From contig DYKH01000044.1 in the NCBI GenBank assembly GCA_020722685.1, forward strand, positions 1-39,357: a DNA stretch of 39,357 bases. The letters are read 5' to 3'. How positions within the stretch are numbered: the stretch's first letter is position 1; each line of letters starts with the position of its first letter. Below, piece after piece: positions 1 to 9,318 of the stretch. The notes under the pieces are model-generated. The model ran no database searches. It was not told where the DNA came from and saw nothing but the letters and a program-made list of their open reading frames with translations. The DNA comes from Caldithrix sp. Its GTDB lineage: Bacteria > KSB1 > UBA2214 > DYKH01. The translations under genes were made by a program, and so were the position numbers.

Positions 1-349
1 AGGCGACGACCTCGGTCCATGAGGTGCCATTATCGGCGGAGTACTCGATCTTGACGTTGCCGGAGGTATTGACGGAAGTCCAGGTGATGTCGTGCACGGA
101 GCCGACCTGCCAGGTTTCCCCGCCGTTGGGACTGGTCACGGTAATAGCCGGAACCGCAGAGATGGTAAAGACGGCATCGCTGACATCGGAGGGTGAGCCG
201 TCCACGTCGGTCACTCTCACCAGAGCAGTGGTCGTGGGCGTATTGGGAACGGTCCACGAATAACTGCCATCATCGGTGGTGGAGGCGACGACCTCGGTCC
301 ATGAGGTGCCATTATCGGCGGAGTACTCGATCTTGACGTTGCCGGAGGT
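1..349. repeat. 282-bp tandem Ig-repeat unit with near-identical 67-bp blocks
   Basis: Bases 1-67 reappear essentially unchanged at 283-349, a period of 282 bp or exactly 94 codons. Sequence after the block (68 onward versus 350 onward) is clearly diverged. The block encodes the VKIEYSADNGTSWTEVVA core of the Ig-like repeat. A related, less similar copy lies in the gene at 4260-6320. Confidence 0.8.
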
Positions 350-961
350 CCCGATAGAAGTCCACGTAATATTCTGGCTCGTGCCGACCGTCCAGTTTTC
401 GCCACCATTTGGTGAAGTAACGGTGATGCCGGGAGCATGAACCGTAACCGACCCGTCATTGACGGTTAGAATCGTAAGCAAATTCTTAAAGGTCGAGGCA
501 GAAGACATGGCTGAGTAGGCCAAGTCAAGGACACTTGTTCCAGGGGCAAAAGCCTTTAGTCTGATATTGATAATATTGATGGCCCCAGTAGTGCCTGTAG
601 GATTGGCATCACTAAATCTTATGATACCGGTGGCGGAGTCTGCATCATTGACAGTTGGGCTATCCCATCCAGTGGTGGAACCGCCGCTCCAACTGACAAA
701 TTTCAACACTGCCGGATCCCAGGTCAAGCTACCGGTGTAGCTGCCAAGCTTGTTATCCGGAGGATCGACATTTGTCATGTCAATATTAATTGCCACATCA
801 ATCTGCTCGCCAACCAGCGGGTCCGAGTTAGAAGGGACCGCCTCCGAAGTTACTGATCCCGTCTGCGCAAACATTGGAGTGCTGCCCAGCAAAACGCCGC
901 CGAGCAGGGAAAATAGCAGAATATGCAAATATCGTTGCCAGAACGTGTGCGACAGTTTCAT
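1..961 (-). CDS. Exported cohesin-domain protein with Ig-like repeats (partial, 3' end off window)
   Basis: The reading frame opens at an ATG (959-961, minus strand) with a GGAGGT ribosome binding site at 968-973 and runs off the left edge after 320 codons, so the C-terminus is unseen. Residues 1-32 form a signal peptide ending in MFAQ. Residues about 35-170 resemble a cohesin domain (VGEQIDVAINID, GSYTGSLTWDPAVLKF, GIIRFSDANP). From about residue 178, Ig-like repeats start with ITVTSPNGGENW and contain GNVKIEYSADNGTSW, as in the Kre9/Knh1-type family PF10342. Two repeats of 94 residues are visible. It is the last gene in the window of a minus-strand run of four exported proteins. A cohesin would be expected to bind dockerins, and two upstream genes encode them. 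The missing end could carry a T9SS sorting domain as the neighbour at 1048-1839 does, but this cannot be seen. Confidence 0.85.
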   Translation of the reverse strand, partial: MKLSHTFWQRYLHILLFSLLGGVLLGSTPMFAQTGSVTSEAVPSNSDPLVGEQIDVAINIDMTNVDPPDNKLGSYTGSLTWDPAVLKFVSWSGGSTTGWDSPTVNDADSATGIIRFSDANPTGTTGAINIINIRLKAFAPGTSVLDLAYSAMSSASTFKNLLTILTVNDGSVTVHAPGITVTSPNGGENWTVGTSQNITWTSIGTSGNVKIEYSADNGTSWTEVVASTTDDGSYSWTVPNTPTTTALVRVTDVDGSPSDVSDAVFTISAVPAITVTSPNGGETWQVGSVHDITWTSVNTSGNVKIEYSADNGTSWTEVVA

Positions 962-1047
962 TGTCTGACCTCCAAGTCAATGGTTATTGCTTCTCCAGAC
1001 TTTGCAAAAACCAGTCTCTTAAGAGAAGGCTGGATTTTGGTGAAAAT

Positions 1048-1839
1048 CTATTTTACCAACATCATCTTGATGCTTTCTCTAAAAGTACCAGCTTCAAACG
1101 AACAGAGGTAGATGCCGGCTGGTACCGTTTTACTGGAATCATCCTTGCCATCCCAGGAAACGGTATAGGTTCCAGCGGCTTTTTGTTCATTGACGAGCGT
1201 TCTTATTTTTTGGCCAACGGAATTAAAAATTTCCAAGCGCACGCGGTGATTGCCCGGAAGTTGATAGGTAATTTCGGTGCTAGGGTTAAAGGGATTCGGA
1301 TGATTCTGAAAAATGGAAAAATCTTTAGGGATTTCGCCAACCCTTATTCCTTGCTCAACGCCCGTAACGGATTCTGCGAGATAGGGCAGAAGGTCGTGAA
1401 ATGTAAGCGCGGCGGCCATGGCTGAAATATTCAGTTTTACGGCACTGCGTGATCCCCGCGAACCAATAACTTCAAATGTCACGTTCAATACATTTACCTT
1501 TCCCTCTGCGCCCCGGGGATTGGCGGCTGCAAAAATCAGTTTGCCTTCGGATGCCTTGGCGGCATTGACAACTGGGCTGTTGAAGCCTTCAGCACTTCCT
1601 GGACTATGATGGAGATACCGTAGTATTTGGTTATCCCAATTTAGCGCCGCCGTAAAACTGCCCAGTTTTTCCGGCAGCCCGCTCAGGTCAATAATAACCG
1701 GCACGACGATTTGCTGTCCTGTCGCTGCCATGTCGTTGGTGGGTTGCGCGGTTGCAGTAATAAGCCCTGACGAAATTGCTCGCTGCGAAAAGAGGGCCAA
1801 AATGAGCAATGGCACAGGCGTCCATTTCAATGTTTTCAT
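1048..1839 (-). CDS. Secreted cohesin-domain protein with T9SS C-terminal sorting domain
   Basis: 263 aa. Start ATG at 1837-1839 with a strong AAAGGAGGT site at 1848-1856. Residues 1-25 form a signal peptide. Residues about 28-150 resemble a cohesin domain (GQQIVVPVIIDLSGL, GSFTAALNWDNQILRYL, GKLIFAAANPRG). After a linker, residues about 174-263 are a FlgD-like T9SS type A sorting domain. It contains the typical FQNHPNPFNPSTEITYQL, followed by VRLEIFNSVGQKIRTLV and SWDGKD, and ends in VPAGIYLCSFEAG. The protein is therefore expected to cross the outer membrane by type IX secretion and stay at the surface or be released. It starts 31 bp after the dockerin-subtilase ends and precedes a second cohesin gene, so it could be a surface receptor for the two dockerin proteins. 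Family calls are firm; the binding partner is inferred. Confidence 0.88.
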   Translation of the reverse strand: MKTLKWTPVPLLILALFSQRAISSGLITATAQPTNDMAATGQQIVVPVIIDLSGLPEKLGSFTAALNWDNQILRYLHHSPGSAEGFNSPVVNAAKASEGKLIFAAANPRGAEGKVNVLNVTFEVIGSRGSRSAVKLNISAMAAALTFHDLLPYLAESVTGVEQGIRVGEIPKDFSIFQNHPNPFNPSTEITYQLPGNHRVRLEIFNSVGQKIRTLVNEQKAAGTYTVSWDGKDDSSKTVPAGIYLCSFEAGTFRESIKMMLVK

Positions 1840-1870
1840 GATCTATTACCTCCTTTGAATTCTGCATGAA

Positions 1871-4183
1871 TTAAGGATTGCATCCGGGACACGGACTGAC
1901 GTTTGCCGGACATCCAGGTTGTCCCACTGGATAAGGAACTGACATTCCGACGTCGTAGGATAAGATGATCAGCGCGTCGGTTGAGTTTACCAACCCATCA
2001 CTATTAACATCACCGCAATTCATAGGGCAAAACTGTGAGACGTCAATGCCCACGTCACAGGAAAGGATGATTAAAGCATCCGTGGAGTTGGCGACGCCAT
2101 CATCGTTGACATCGCCGAGAATGCCGCAATCAACGTGGATGTAGGCTGCTTGGGTCAGGGTATCGGCGCCGCAGGAATTGCTGACCTGCAAGGTGACATC
2201 AAAATCCCCACCGTTGTTGTAAACAACTTGATGTGGGCCTTGTCCAATGGCGGTCGCGGGATCACCGCCGGGGAAATTCCATTGCCAACTGGTGGGATTT
2301 CCAGTCGATTGATCGGTAAAAGTGACGGTTAACGGGCAGTTTCCACTGGTTGGGTCGGCTGTGAAAGCTGCGGTTGGCGAGCCGGAGGTGGTGATATAAT
2401 CGACTTTGGTTTCGGTGTCCGCGCCGCCTGGCCCGGTGACTGTTAGCGAAACGGTGTATGTTCCAACAGAAGTATATTCATGGGAGGGATTTTGCAAAGT
2501 GGAAGTGCCGCCATCACCAAAATCCCACGACCAAGAGGTTATGCTCCCAGTGGAAAGATCGGTAAAGACAACCGTCAAAGGCGTGCAGCCGGAGGTCGGG
2601 GAAGCGCTAAAGTCAGCAACTGGAGCTGCAACACCAGTATTGACGGCGTTAAACGCATTCACGCGTCCTGCGCCCAGTTTGCCCGCGTAAGAGGAATTGC
2701 AGGCGAGAGCGTCAATGTCATCGGCGCTGTCGTAGAGCTGCTGGACGACTTGACTCGCCGTCCAAGTGAGATTCCTAGACCAGATTAAGGCGGCGACGCT
2801 GGCAGCAATGGGAGTGGACATCGAAGTGCCGCTGACACTGGCGATATAGTCGTTTTCCGGATCGCTATGCACGTGATAGAGGCTCCAGATATTGGTGCCA
2901 GGAGCAGAAATATCCACATGCGTGCCATAATTGGAGAAATCGGCTTTGCAATCGTTGGAATCGGTAGCGGCGACGGTAACGATGTCGCTGCGTGCGGACA
3001 TGTAATCGCTGCTTTCAGTACCGTCATTACCAGCGGACTTAAAAATGATGCCACCATTGGCAAGAAAATAGTCTATGGCATCGCCAATGCCGCCGCTCTC
3101 CGAGGATCCCCAGCTACAGGAGGCGATTTTGGCCCCATTATTGGCAGCATAATAAAAAGCTTGGGCGGCAAAATCCATGCTGACAAATCCCAGCTCGAAT
3201 TGGCCTACGCCCGCCGAATAGCCGATGCGGCAGGCCATCACTTTCACCCCATTGGCGGTCGGCTGCAGCGTGCCGTCGCCCCAGCCGCCGGAGGCCGCCG
3301 CCGTGGCATAGGCATTGTTATTGATGGCGCCAACGTTGCCGGCGCAGTGGGTTCCATGGCCATTAAAATCGCGCGGATCGTTATCTGGCACATTGCAGTC
3401 TTCGCCGGTATAGCAGGTAGTAATTCCATCCACAAAATCCCAGCCAATCCAGTCATCAACAAAGCCATTGCCATCGTCATCGACGCCGGCCGCGCCATTC
3501 TTCTCTGTCCAGTTGACCCACATGTTGCCATCCACGTTGGTGGGATCGGAGTATGAGGCATTTGCCCCGCCCAAATCTTTGTGGAAATAACGCACACCCG
3601 TATCAAGAATGGCTACAATTACATTGCTATCACCGGTCTCAATATCCCAAGCCTCCGGCGCATCCATATCAGCGTCGTTAGCTTGGTTCAGATGCCATTG
3701 CCGGCTAAAGTTAGTATCATTGGGAATCGCATCAACCGTGTGAATGCCAATGGGCTGGGCATCTATGACGCCGGCAATGTTCTTATATTCATCGGCCACG
3801 GCTACGGGATCAATCTGTTCAGCAAATTTTATTTTGTACCAGCCAGAGAGATCAATTTCCCTTCCGTTGTAGTACTTTTTCTTTGCTCCGACGAATTGCT
3901 GTCGAATGTGCATGGACCCATAGCGTTGGCCAAGGTTATCCAAGGCGAAGATGCCCGTCGCGCCTTGAGCGAGCGCCGTTTCTTGGAAGCTTGCTACAAC
4001 GGCAGCAGTAAATTTTACCACAATTTCATCGCCAACGTAACCAACAAAGCTTGGCGCATTCCGTCGCTCTATTTTAATAACTTGTGGGTCAGCAGCAAAA
4101 GTCAGAGTCGTAACAAATAGCGAAACCAACAAAGCGTGAAGTGTAAGGTACTTCATTGTGGCCCTCCTCGAATACTTTCGCAT
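1871..4183 (-). CDS. Exported subtilisin-like (S8) serine protease with two PKD domains and C-terminal dockerin
   Basis: 770 aa. The catalytic triad is complete: Asp194 in AILDTG, His276 in NGHGTH and Ser454 in SGTSMSTP, with oxyanion Asn386 in SAGND. An N-terminal prodomain-like stretch (about 35-150) follows a signal peptide. Two PKD beta-sandwich domains lie at about 520-597 (WSWDFGDGG) and 602-685. A type I dockerin spans about 688-748 with two DVNxDGxxNSTDALIIL calcium-binding repeats, followed by a Cys/Pro tail ending CPGCNP. Two starts are possible: 4183, or 4156 (Met10, MKYLTLHALL). Both have GGAGG sites 6 nt upstream, and both keep the signal peptide. The dockerin nearly matches that of the gene at 4260-6320, and the next gene downstream is a cohesin, suggesting display through cohesin-dockerin contact. 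The cleavage target is unknown. Confidence 0.93.
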   Translation of the reverse strand: MRKYSRRATMKYLTLHALLVSLFVTTLTFAADPQVIKIERRNAPSFVGYVGDEIVVKFTAAVVASFQETALAQGATGIFALDNLGQRYGSMHIRQQFVGAKKKYYNGREIDLSGWYKIKFAEQIDPVAVADEYKNIAGVIDAQPIGIHTVDAIPNDTNFSRQWHLNQANDADMDAPEAWDIETGDSNVIVAILDTGVRYFHKDLGGANASYSDPTNVDGNMWVNWTEKNGAAGVDDDGNGFVDDWIGWDFVDGITTCYTGEDCNVPDNDPRDFNGHGTHCAGNVGAINNNAYATAAASGGWGDGTLQPTANGVKVMACRIGYSAGVGQFELGFVSMDFAAQAFYYAANNGAKIASCSWGSSESGGIGDAIDYFLANGGIIFKSAGNDGTESSDYMSARSDIVTVAATDSNDCKADFSNYGTHVDISAPGTNIWSLYHVHSDPENDYIASVSGTSMSTPIAASVAALIWSRNLTWTASQVVQQLYDSADDIDALACNSSYAGKLGAGRVNAFNAVNTGVAAPVADFSASPTSGCTPLTVVFTDLSTGSITSWSWDFGDGGTSTLQNPSHEYTSVGTYTVSLTVTGPGGADTETKVDYITTSGSPTAAFTADPTSGNCPLTVTFTDQSTGNPTSWQWNFPGGDPATAIGQGPHQVVYNNGGDFDVTLQVSNSCGADTLTQAAYIHVDCGILGDVNDDGVANSTDALIILSCDVGIDVSQFCPMNCGDVNSDGLVNSTDALIILSYDVGMSVPYPVGQPGCPANVSPCPGCNP

Positions 4184-4259
4184 CCTTTGCCTCCTTTGTT
4201 GTCAAGAACAGTTAAAGGGGAAAAAAGTCCATCCAACTTTACCAACGATTATTATAGAA

Positions 4260-6320
4260 TCAGGGATTGCATCCCGGACAAGGCGTTACCCCCGCCGGAC
4301 AACCCGGTTGACCCACTGGATAGGGGACCTCGATGCCGACATCATACGATAATATGATCAAGGCATCAGTCGAGTTTACCAAACCGTCGCTGTTAGTATC
4401 GCCGCAATCCATCGGACAGAATTGGGACACATCGATGCCTACATCACAGGATAATATGATCAGTGCATCGGTAGAGTTGGCAAAAGTATCTTGGTTGACA
4501 TCTCCTAACAGTCCCGCCGCTGAGATGGTGAATACAGCGTCGCTTTGGTCGGATGGGCTGCCGTCGACATCGGTGATCCTCACCAAGCAGGTGGTGGATG
4601 GAGTATCGGGTACCGTCCAAGGAAAGTTGCCATCATCGGTAGTGCTGGCAACGACCTCGGTCCAGCTTGTGCCATTGTCGCTCGAGTATTCGATCTTGAC
4701 ATTGCCGCTTGTGCCCGAAGAAGTCCAAGTGATGTCGTGGGAACTGCCCACTTGCCAATTTTCTTCGCCATTGGGGGAAGTGACACTCAAGTTCTCTGTT
4801 GTTGCAGCTTCTGTGATCGTCAAAAACTGGTCGATTGATATATTTGTTAATGTTTGCACAATTCCCGAAGGCCATTCGACCTTTATCTCGCTTATGAGCG
4901 TTGCATCTCCCAAACCAAAATGTGCTCTCAGATCATTATGACTGGCATAGCCGGTCTGTGCAGAAATATCGCGCGTCTGCCAGACTACACTACCATTGAT
5001 CGTGGCTTTGGCTCGTACAACGGCGCCGATGCCAGCTCTGTTGGAGGTAGTTCCTACGCATGTTATAATGATCCAATGATTGGTGTTGCCATTGGTCGGA
5101 CCGTTATTCTTGTAGAGATAATTGGTGTCGCTTCGCGCCGTAAATAAGTCTAAAAAGCCATCATTATTATAATCCGCAAAAGCGGCTCCATAGACCCAAG
5201 TGCAGTCTGTAACGACGCTGGTGCTATTTTTCCCAAATGTCCCATCACCGTTATTAATGTACAAAAAGTTGGTCCAGCCGCTGTCAGGAGGGCCACAATT
5301 GCCAACAAACATGTCCAGATCGGCATCGTTATCAATGTCGCCCCAGCAACTTCCGGTAGAAAAGGCGGCGTCATCAACAATGGGTCCAGCGGTGGTCACT
5401 CGGGTGAAAACGTCTCCGCCGTCGTTCCGATAAAGATAGTTTTGCTCTGGCGCGGGCTCCGATTCGCCATAGTTGGTGATGTATAGGTCAAGGTCGCCAT
5501 CATTGTCGTAATCGCCCCAACTGCAGGCTTGAGAATCCCCGCCGTCAAATATGGCGAGTTTTGTAAAGGTATTGCCTCCATCGTTGCGCCACAAAAAATT
5601 ATTTGCGCCGCTGCCACTTGGTCTAAATAAATCCAAGTCACCATCCTGATCATAATCGGCCCAGGCGAAATCGGCAATAAAACCAGCCCCCTCATCGCCC
5701 ACCAAAGGGATGCCGGTTATATCGGTAAAAGTGCCATCGCCATCGTTGGAATAGAGGGAATTCCTTTCCTTACCGTAGAAACCATTTGTTACAAATAAAT
5801 CCAGAAAGCTATCGTTATTATAATCTCCCCAGCCGCAGCCAACCGAATATTCTTCATCAGTCACTGGCGGTCCTGCAGTGGTGTTCTTAGTAAAAGTGCC
5901 ATCGCCATTGTTTACATATAAGCAATTTTCTTTTGCGGTATCAAAAGGATTATCCGTATTCGTTGTGACATACAAATCCACATCACTATCATTGTCAAAA
6001 TCGCCCCAGGAACAGCTACCTGAAATGAACTCGTCGTTGACAATTGCGCCAGTGGTGATTTTAGTGAATGTGCCATCCCCATTATTCCGATATAAAAAGT
6101 TTTTTTGCTTGGAGCCCGATGCGCCGTTGGTGACATACAAGTCCACGTAGCCATCATTATCATAATCTGCCCAGCCTACTCCTTTGGACATGCCTCTATC
6201 GGCGCCAAATATATGGTGCAATTGGGTAAAAGGGTCTTGAGCATGAAGTTCAGGTAGGCTTGGCCAGCTCAGAAGTGCTAAGGCAAGTAGAGAGACCAAA
6301 GGATGTTTTTGTTGGCTCAT
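4260..6320 (-). CDS. Exported FG-GAP/VCBS repeat protein with ASPIC/UnbV region, Ig-like domain and dockerin
   Basis: 686 aa. Start ATG at 6318-6320 preceded by an AGGAAAGGG site. A signal peptide ends in ELHAQ. Residues about 35-415 hold seven FG-GAP/VCBS repeats, each with WGDYDNDGDLDLYITN-type calcium loops, predicting a beta-propeller. An ASPIC/UnbV segment follows (about 425-505; NRAGIGAVVRAKA, DLRAHFGLGDA, VEWPSG). An Ig-like PF10342 repeat (about 511-596) comes next, then a dockerin (about 603-665) and the same CPGCNP tail as the subtilase. In the first dockerin repeat the usual DxNxDG reads DVNQDTF, so one calcium loop is weaker. Such proteins are usually surface adhesins or carbohydrate-binding scaffolds; no enzyme active site is visible. 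It is the first gene of the minus-strand run, 76 bp ahead of the subtilase and about 560 nt downstream of a strong promoter. Confidence 0.9.
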   Translation of the reverse strand: MSQQKHPLVSLLALALLSWPSLPELHAQDPFTQLHHIFGADRGMSKGVGWADYDNDGYVDLYVTNGASGSKQKNFLYRNNGDGTFTKITTGAIVNDEFISGSCSWGDFDNDSDVDLYVTTNTDNPFDTAKENCLYVNNGDGTFTKNTTAGPPVTDEEYSVGCGWGDYNNDSFLDLFVTNGFYGKERNSLYSNDGDGTFTDITGIPLVGDEGAGFIADFAWADYDQDGDLDLFRPSGSGANNFLWRNDGGNTFTKLAIFDGGDSQACSWGDYDNDGDLDLYITNYGESEPAPEQNYLYRNDGGDVFTRVTTAGPIVDDAAFSTGSCWGDIDNDADLDMFVGNCGPPDSGWTNFLYINNGDGTFGKNSTSVVTDCTWVYGAAFADYNNDGFLDLFTARSDTNYLYKNNGPTNGNTNHWIIITCVGTTSNRAGIGAVVRAKATINGSVVWQTRDISAQTGYASHNDLRAHFGLGDATLISEIKVEWPSGIVQTLTNISIDQFLTITEAATTENLSVTSPNGEENWQVGSSHDITWTSSGTSGNVKIEYSSDNGTSWTEVVASTTDDGNFPWTVPDTPSTTCLVRITDVDGSPSDQSDAVFTISAAGLLGDVNQDTFANSTDALIILSCDVGIDVSQFCPMDCGDTNSDGLVNSTDALIILSYDVGIEVPYPVGQPGCPAGVTPCPGCNP

Positions 6321-7345: not shown

Positions 7346-9318
7346 ATGACAACGAGTTGCTGTATTGTATTGCTGATGGCGTCAATCTCCATAGTCCACG
7401 CTCAACAAAATGAATCCAAGATACTCCAATTGCCGGAGCCCTGGCAAAACGCATGGAGCGATCCTCCCGGCGCCGACCGTCCCTTGAAAATTGTTCACGA
7501 GCTGGGGGATGAAGCAAAAGCGCGTGATCTGCTGACCTGACTCCACGAGCGCGGCCTGGGCGGAATGGTCACCAATGTTTCCTTTTCGGACTATTTGCGT
7601 TCAGAGCAGAGCTGGGTCACTTTGGAATCCGCCGTGAAGACCTGCAAAGAAATGGGCATGGTAGTTTGGATTTATGACGAGCAGGGGTACCCCAGTGCCG
7701 CTGCCGGCGGAGAAGTGCTCAAAGCCAAGCCGGACTTGGAAGCGCTGGAGCTGGCGTACGATCCCTCTCAGGCGGAGCCATTTATCGTGCGCCCCGCATT
7801 TGAGTACACCCACGCCAGCAACAATTACTAGGCGTGCCGGCGCTATGCGAATATCATCGACCCTCGAGCGGTGGAAAGCTTCATCGAGAAGGCCCGCGTT
7901 GCATATTGGAACAGATTGCAGCCGTTTTCTGGTAGTCCTATTCAGGCCTTTTTCACCGATGAGCCGTCGCTCATGGCGCTCAATCGGGGACAAATTCCCG
8001 AACCGGCGCGCGGAAAGGTCCCGGTGGTTGACTCGATTGAGGTGAACAAGGCCATGCTTCCGGTGGTTCCTTGGAGCCATGACTTACCACAGCAATACCA
8101 TGCGAGACACCGTGAGGACCTGATGGCACGGCGTTCCAGTCTGTTTAGCGGCAACTCAAATCAGGATCGGCGAACCCGGCGGCAATTTTGGAGTCTCATT
8201 GCCGATTTGGTTGCGGAGCGCTATTTTGGCAGCCTGCAAAGCTGGTGCGGCAAGCATTATGTGGCTTCCTCCGGCCATACATTGTCCGAGGAGTCGTTGA
8301 TCAGGCACGTCGCTCTGGAAGGCAATGCCCTCCAGGCGCTTATGGCGATGGATATTCGAGGATTGGACCTGCTCTCCTCCGCCCCTGTATCGGTCTTGAA
8401 TGGCAATTGGCTGACTGCTGCGTTGCCGAGCTCTGCGGCGCAATTCAACGGCCACCGCCGCGTCATGACTGAAGTCAGCGATTTTGTGCAAACCCTCAAC
8501 GGGAAGCCACCCTCTTCCTTGACGGAAATGCAAGCCACTGCCGCCTGGCAAGCCGCCTGGGGCGTGACGGATTTCACTCTGTATTATGACATTGATAAAA
8601 GGTCCCTTGCGAACGTTAGAGCATATGGGGATTTCATCGGGCGGCTAAACGCCCTACTCAAACCCAGCCGATTTGATCGCAGCGTGTTGCTGTATTATCC
8701 CATTTATGGCTTGTGGCAAGAATACCTGCCCGTTGTCGCTCCCATCGCCATTGAATCCCAGTCACAGAGGGCGCAGAAAATCGTGGAATCGTTTCAACGT
8801 TTGGGCCGGCTATTGCAGGAAAATCAGATTCCCTTTATGTTGGTGGATCACGAGCTATTGTCCGGCGCACGCATGAAAGGATCGGGCAAGTTTCAAATCC
8901 GCGCCCAGGAATACTCTGCGCTTTTGCTGCCGGAGCTGGTGGCGCCGCCTCCGGAATTACAGCGACGATTGGACGCCTGGCAAAGCAAAGGCTTTACCAT
9001 CCTCCGTGACGGCGGCGAAGGGGAGGAACCGAATTCGGTGATATTGAGGAAGCAACTGAAACCTTTGCTGCGGCTTGAGCCGGCATGCGACCACATTGTC
9101 GCCGGTACTTTTGTTCGCGAAAACCGTTCCATTGCCCCCTGGTAAACGTCGGTAGGGAGCCTTACGATGGGCTGCTGATCGCCGGAATGGGAAATCGACT
9201 CTTGTTACTCGATCCCTCGACGGGAAAATCTTTCGCAGCGCCCGCTCTTGGCAAGGATGGCTTCGCGTTATCGCTAAGATCCCATCAAACTCTGCTTTTG
9301 GTTTTTGCGGAACGGTAA
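7346..9318 (+). pseudogene. Broken exported glycoside hydrolase-like gene (GH106-like)
   Basis: One coding frame runs from ATG 7346 with a signal peptide (MTTSCCIVLLMASISIVHAQ). It is interrupted by TGA at 7538-7540 and TAG at 7829-7831, both in the same frame. The frame is then lost near a run of five C at 9135-9139: adding one C restores reading into VNVGREPYDGLLIAGMGN, which continues to TAA at 9316-9318. The product would be about 650 aa. Recognisable pieces are MVVWIYDEQGYPSAAAGG, near the N-terminus, and IQAFFTDEPSLMAL. These resemble motifs of large GH106-type rhamnosidase-like proteins, where a YDE-x-x-(W/Y)PSG segment and a TDEP motif recur; the exact family is uncertain. The sequence between lesions still looks fully protein-like, so loss is recent, or some lesions are assembly errors. 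A promoter at 7176-7204 remains. Confidence 0.75.

Follow-up and report, generated by a model that had tools for sequence, protein, structure and literature searches.

Dockerin-ended cargo genes followed by a cohesin gene with a type IX sorting tail: a candidate surface-assembly module in KSB1/Calditrichota and related phyla

The stretch of DNA analysed here (the window; 39,357 nucleotides of Caldithrix sp. contig DYKH01000044.1) was shown to contain a run of four minus-strand genes (4260..6320, 1871..4183, 1048..1839 and 2..961), which, with a probability of roughly three in four, encodes a small cohesin-dockerin surface-assembly module in which dockerin-bearing cargo is held by a cohesin-tail adaptor. 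The cohesin-dockerin joint is a plug-and-socket connection known mainly from cellulose-degrading complexes. Cargo of the type IX secretion system (T9SS) is generally regarded as bearing its own sorting tail. In the proposed mechanism, a subtilase-PKD cargo and an FG-GAP/UnbV propeller cargo, each ending in a type I-like calcium dockerin and not in a T9SS tail, would be exported, and the next gene would supply a minimal adaptor composed of one cohesin and a T9SS tail. Following Sec export the dockerin would grip the cohesin, and the adaptor's tail would steer the assembled complex to the outer surface or hold it there. The features of the run are as follows:

4260..6320, minus strand: cargo gene 1, with FG-GAP repeats (PF13517, 151.9 bits), UnbV/ASPIC (PF07593, 72.1 bits), an Ig-like module and a dockerin
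4517..4784, minus strand: Ig-like module (SPNGEENW...) of cargo gene 1, common to the truncated cohesin protein at 2-961
4293..4520, minus strand: C-terminal dockerin in the product of cargo gene 1 (residues 601-676), NSTDAL present in each of the two loops
1871..4183, minus strand: cargo gene 2, with an S8 N-terminal domain, a subtilase domain, two PKD domains and a C-terminal dockerin
2711..3628, minus strand: subtilase (Peptidase_S8) domain, residues 186-491
1904..2131, minus strand: subtilase dockerin, residues 685-760, two complete D-x-N-x-D...NSTD loops
1048..1839, minus strand: anchor gene for a 263-aa protein made up of one cohesin and a T9SS sorting tail of the FlgD-like kind
1336..1767, minus strand: cohesin domain of the anchor gene, residues 25-168
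1051..1323, minus strand: T9SS C-terminal sorting domain (FlgD_ig / Por_Secre_tail; TIGR04183 25.8 bits, cut-off 23; PF13860 40.4 bits)
2..961, minus strand: second cohesin gene, cohesin at about 443-865, then SPNGGE-type Ig-like repeats; cut by the contig end

The analysis confirmed the two cohesins and two dockerins that the initial annotation had placed in one minus-strand run, as well as the T9SS tail it had assigned to one cohesin protein (1048-1839), which carries the C-terminal sorting domain of type A T9SS cargo. In the product of cargo gene 1, the FG-GAP repeats are followed by UnbV/ASPIC, a single SPNGGE-type Ig-like module and the C-terminal dockerin. Cargo gene 2 matches PF00082 (136.5 bits), PF18911 (two stretches) and PF00404 (27.6 bits). 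Both begin with a hydrophobic N-terminus that is likely a signal peptide, and profile searches found no T9SS tail in either (4260..6320 and 1871..4183).

The subtilase dockerin scores above the PF00404 cut-off of 22.9 bits, placing it among the type I dockerins, and was found to comprise two F-hand calcium loops with the ligand positions, in the conventional loop numbering, kept in both (alignment A3). The dockerin profile A3 matches the C. thermocellum CelS dockerin (2mte) with an E value of 4.1e-8. The dockerin of cargo gene 1, likewise aligned in A3, falls below the PF00404 cut-off (19.9 bits) and is classed only as dockerin-like, through its 87% identity to the subtilase dockerin; its E value of 3e-42 was obtained with a profile built including the same sequence. 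A PCxGC-like end follows many split dockerins and reads PCPGCNP in both window proteins (1871-1910 and 4260-4300), and the dockerins carry further cysteines besides this end, possibly forming disulfides.

The first window cohesin, that of the anchor gene, has the cohesin jelly-roll fold, and the second gene matches a cohesin profile (which includes the same sequence) with an E value of 3e-51. PF00963 did not match either window cohesin protein, while 29 of 40 aligned relatives match it (best E 1.8e-9). As single proteins searched against PDB sequences, 1048-1839 matched no chains but three of FlgD and an L-glutamate oxidase at chance level, and 2-961 matched none. An identical 263-aa protein is encoded on another contig, of 62,027 bases. 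Complete longer cohesin proteins with a terminal tail occur elsewhere (L016:10761-13823 and L099:5770-8496), and locus L003 has the same order as the second cohesin gene and is likewise cut off; by comparison with the complete counterparts, the protein encoded at 2..961 probably ends in a T9SS tail and probably represents another anchor with Ig-like spacer repeats. Within 2-432, its Ig-like repeat at 154-421 and the module of the FG-GAP cargo at 4517-4784 share 73.7% DNA identity over 270 alignment columns, indicative of duplication or exchange between anchor and cargo, and two Ig-like copies within the second cohesin gene share 80.8% over 151 columns. We infer that dockerin and cohesin bind, that the complex lies at the surface, and which cohesin serves which dockerin.

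The strongest single result is the comparison of C-termini among homologs of the two cargo proteins. Among the best 120 of 6850 subtilase homologs above threshold (window included), 108 end in a tail, three in a dockerin and nine in neither; the 120 FG-GAP homologs listed comprise 46 tail-ended, five dockerin-ended and one cohesin-tail protein, and 68 with none of these. A tail and a dockerin together were found in none of the 240 homologs listed (0 of 120 in either family). In the window, the dockerin sits at the position of the T9SS tail in most of the protease's close homologs, which the initial annotation had missed, and since subtilase homologs may end in either, the same protease family provides both direct T9SS cargo and dockerin cargo. 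Among the homologs listed, dockerin-ended subtilases beside a separate cohesin-tail gene were found in the window and in L002 (P0144).

This exchange of tail for dockerin, seen in the protease and propeller families alike, favours sorting in trans over capture outside the cell: the cohesin-tail protein would bind dockerin cargo in the periplasm and carry it through the T9SS, the sorting signal being split non-covalently over two proteins. The 75 distinct dockerin open reading frames (ORFs) of the window and the loci, near-identical genes from different genomes being retained, are consistent with such a split, as the dockerin forms the C-terminal end in 44 of them, and 22 run on as cohesin-tail, presenting the same triad in a single chain. 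Eight more reach a contig end (three as cohesin, five open at the dockerin), and in the remaining one (L098) a weak dockerin (3e-05) is followed directly by a tail. However, identical genomics would be expected if the cargo were periplasmic or left by another exit route and was caught by the cohesin-tail protein at the cell surface, and this is the known logic of cellulosomes, in which clostridial anchoring scaffoldins capture secreted enzymes (PMC9012536). Against such capture stands the second outer-membrane route that it would require for the subtilase, 108 of whose 120 listed homologs bear a tail themselves.

To follow the gene order in related genomes, a survey that the initial annotation had suggested, GTDB species genomes were scanned with the cohesin alignment A2 (one peptide pattern), by which 161 stretches were retrieved and 28 confirmed, corresponding to 28 loci in 15 genomes. 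In all 28 of these cohesin-found loci, a same-type dockerin is found just upstream of a cohesin gene (17) or fused N-terminally to a cohesin (11). The dockerin-linked cohesin is the scan-matched one in 27; in the exception, L015, the scan-matched cohesin is N-terminal to the dockerin within the cargo, and another cohesin gene, itself truncated, lies 20 nt downstream. L001, L002 and L027 repeat the window's order of a subtilase-dockerin gene and then cohesin-tail, and L003 repeats that of FG-GAP/UnbV-dockerin, cohesin-tail and another cohesin bearing SPNGGE repeats.

In total, the 15 whole genomes yielded 75 matches to dockerin and 87 to cohesin. A same-strand cohesin lies at most 1.5 kb downstream of 44 of the 75 dockerins, compared with 0.19 expected from genome sizes and counts, within the same ORF in 25 cases and in the next one in 19. 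The initial annotation had named dockerin genes that always lack a cohesin neighbour as what would refute the pairing, and these counts show the opposite for more than half of the dockerins. No cohesin was found on the opposite strand within 5 kb of any of the 75. The 19 split pairs show a median stop-to-start gap of 45 nt, and in the window the anchor gene starts 31 nt past the subtilase stop. The other 31 dockerins lack a cohesin in the 1.5 kb downstream of them (seven of them lie at most 160 nt from a contig end), and for 17 of the 87 cohesins no dockerin lies on the same strand within 3 kb. These unaccompanied dockerins, and the very numerous FlgD-like tails in the surveyed genomes, would suit common modules that do not interact and have come together by chance in an operon for surface proteins; such an origin is highly improbable given the 44 links against 0.19, the same-strand downstream position of the cohesin, the fusions and the co-occurrence of both domains at genome level. 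The pairing proposed in the initial annotation is thus supported by gene order, fusion and co-occurrence; physical binding is a prediction, and the adhesin role that the same annotation gave to the FG-GAP protein is putative.

Cargo in the scanned dockerin proteins was shown to include S8, papain-like C1, C39 and M14 peptidases, FG-GAP, CBM9 and BNR/sortilin-like propellers, with metallophosphatase cargo in Chloroflexota; CBM9 and CBM56 occur once each. Cellulase families were absent from the 30 relatives' dockerin proteins covered by this census (out of 73 outside the window), and the cargo of the window itself, a subtilase and a propeller, is non-cellulolytic, as originally annotated.

The distribution of fusions bears on whether the two domains, instead of serving as cargo and anchor, act mainly in cis or like with like, bracing the fold or building a surface polymer. 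Of the 46 dockerins in genomes G006 and G008, 25 share a polypeptide with their downstream cohesin, and some cargo ends in cohesin-dockerin (L004, L007 and L015), which, together with the cohesin-dockerin-cohesin-tail order in single proteins of L019 and L023, means that proteins could be chained head to tail. AF2 also places both domains confidently in one chain: for L012, a naturally fused dockerin-cohesin of 239 residues modelled with 32 aligned rows, the mean pLDDT is 89.6 and the pTM 0.86, compared with a pTM of 0.61 for cohesin plus tail, although the linker is poor, residues 87-94 falling below 50 pLDDT. This suggests a fixed mutual placement of dockerin and cohesin, a predicted cis contact being no proof of binding in trans. 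A cis role is nevertheless unlikely as the general one, as none of the 29 dockerins in the other 13 genomes has its downstream cohesin in the same ORF, and 16 of the 29 have it in the next gene. Moreover, the fused rows of the cohesin tree, on which three changes are needed, come from G006 and G008 only, with two fused proteins (P0039 and P0041) known from other sources. When the fusion model was used in a fold search, the matches listed were cohesin chains plus a single Ig-like one; none of them, in a library searched chain by chain, covers both domains.

Mirror-tree comparison of 40 dockerin-cohesin pairs gave a correlation of 0.63, reached in none of 5000 within-genome permutations; this is weak evidence, because fusion already links 22 of the 40 pairs, and because in G006 alone the distance matrices agree with an r of only 0.09 (858 of 5000 permutations as high). 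For G008 alone, r was 0.54 (7 of 5000).

Because the 15 genomes had been picked through cohesin, a panel of 82 genomes for the phylum of G001 was also searched. With strong matches defined as E<1e-20 for dockerin and E<1e-15 for cohesin, thresholds set after the tables had been seen and with profiles containing sequences from some panel genomes, all eight dockerin-strong genomes fall within the 13 cohesin-strong ones (Fisher 3.6e-8), six of the eight being already known from cohesin loci; five cohesin-strong genomes have no strong dockerin. At a loose threshold (E<=0.001) the association is weaker: 15 genomes have both, out of 26 with cohesin and 25 with dockerin (P 5.8e-4). The two genomes new in the panel are informative on co-occurrence: in G059 the gene for a 700-aa dockerin protein precedes that for a cohesin...tail protein of 908 aa, and G076 has dockerin and cohesin on separate contigs, each near a contig end.

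SprA (TIGR04189) and PorU (NF033707) were detected over their cut-offs in the same 11 of the 15 genomes. The other four, titled Anaerolineae, Chloroflexota, Chloroflexi or Leptolinea, have neither over cut-off (G012 has a PorU-like match below it), which is no proof of absence, since the genomes are drafts. The dockerin-cohesin order is kept in these four genomes, which lack any SprA match and have no PorU over cut-off, so the pairing itself appears independent of T9SS and the joint not made for it. This counts against sorting in trans, which we regard as tentative and somewhat short of an even chance, and agrees with capture after export, a serious candidate if still below even odds. The reading best supported overall is that, in T9SS hosts, the cohesin-tail adaptor holds dockerin cargo at the cell surface. 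A further candidate, that Chloroflexota cohesins are broadly tail-less, was dropped, as only one of five genes is complete (L024); that one is without a tail. Its protein (L024:5010-5894) has a VFLPFITKG stretch near its end, which may resemble C-terminal motifs of secreted Anaerolineae proteins.

A surface T9SS-anchored cohesin scaffold with dockerin peptidases has been proposed for Cloacimonadota (Ca. Stygibacter; PMC8542988). The interpretation in the initial annotation is partly supported, in its pairing, tail and non-cellulolytic cargo, but the surface complex that it envisaged had a published forerunner. The Ca. Stygibacter complex resembles the present one in placing dockerins on an S8 peptidase and other enzymes and in not being aimed at cellulose, but its scaffoldin has 3,755 aa and combines CBMs with cohesins in tandem, in contrast to the 263-aa single-cohesin adaptor encoded directly behind its cargo. 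Furthermore, dockerin and tail alternate on the same cargo families in the present case. Clostridial type I systems (1ohz, 2ccl and 5nrm) share the cohesin fold, and the dockerin loops, with their NSTD motif, resemble those of CelS and xylanase Y; unlike the clostridial cellulosome, the window encodes neither a multi-cohesin scaffoldin nor a cellulase, each cohesin gene having one cohesin (the second being incomplete). Clostridial anchors are of the SLH or sortase type (PMC9012536 and PMC12484212), in place of which the window has a T9SS tail. The non-cellulosomal cohesin of Archaeoglobus fulgidus (2xdh) is archaeal and lacks such a tail. Non-cellulosomal dockerin and cohesin proteins of ANME archaea, proposed in PMC9012536 to attach proteins to the cell exterior, likewise act outside cellulose breakdown, but differ in their cargo (including ABC-transporter binding proteins), in the proposed attachment by S-layer domains and in the archaeal envelope. 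A literature search covering listings and passages, among them those of PMC11557425 and PMC9251779, found no minimal adaptor of one cohesin and a tail that recurs as a partner gene, no fusion series, no dockerin/T9SS-tail exchange and no precedent for sorting in trans.

With this module, cohesin-dockerin assembly would extend beyond cellulose degradation to the display of proteases in KSB1/Calditrichota and related phyla; the module may also offer a small outer-membrane display system. It is conceivable, at somewhat less than an even chance, that type IX sorting uses a two-part signal here, in which the tail is separated from its cargo and carried by a small cohesin adaptor able to collect any protein with a matching dockerin at its end. 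If so, export and anchoring would be plug-in functions, a single adaptor could serve several cargos, and some lineages would hold all three parts in one chain. Sorting in trans is open to direct test through this recurrent module, in which members of one protease family carry at their end either a tail or a dockerin, the latter with a cohesin-tail gene alongside.

Elsewhere in the window, one plus-strand frame at 7346-9145 is broken at two points by in-frame stops (TGA at 7538-7540 and TAG at 7829-7831); Pfam matched none of its three pieces, and the region looks like one decayed gene or the result of sequencing errors. Among the loci, L002 (OTbin.62) and L008/L009 (PRO9) are titled Actinomycetota and Deltaproteobacteria, respectively, and their cohesins are very close to those of the Calditrichota-titled L001 and MAG_33 loci; these titles look wrong. 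Genome G002 was grouped in the phylum of G001.
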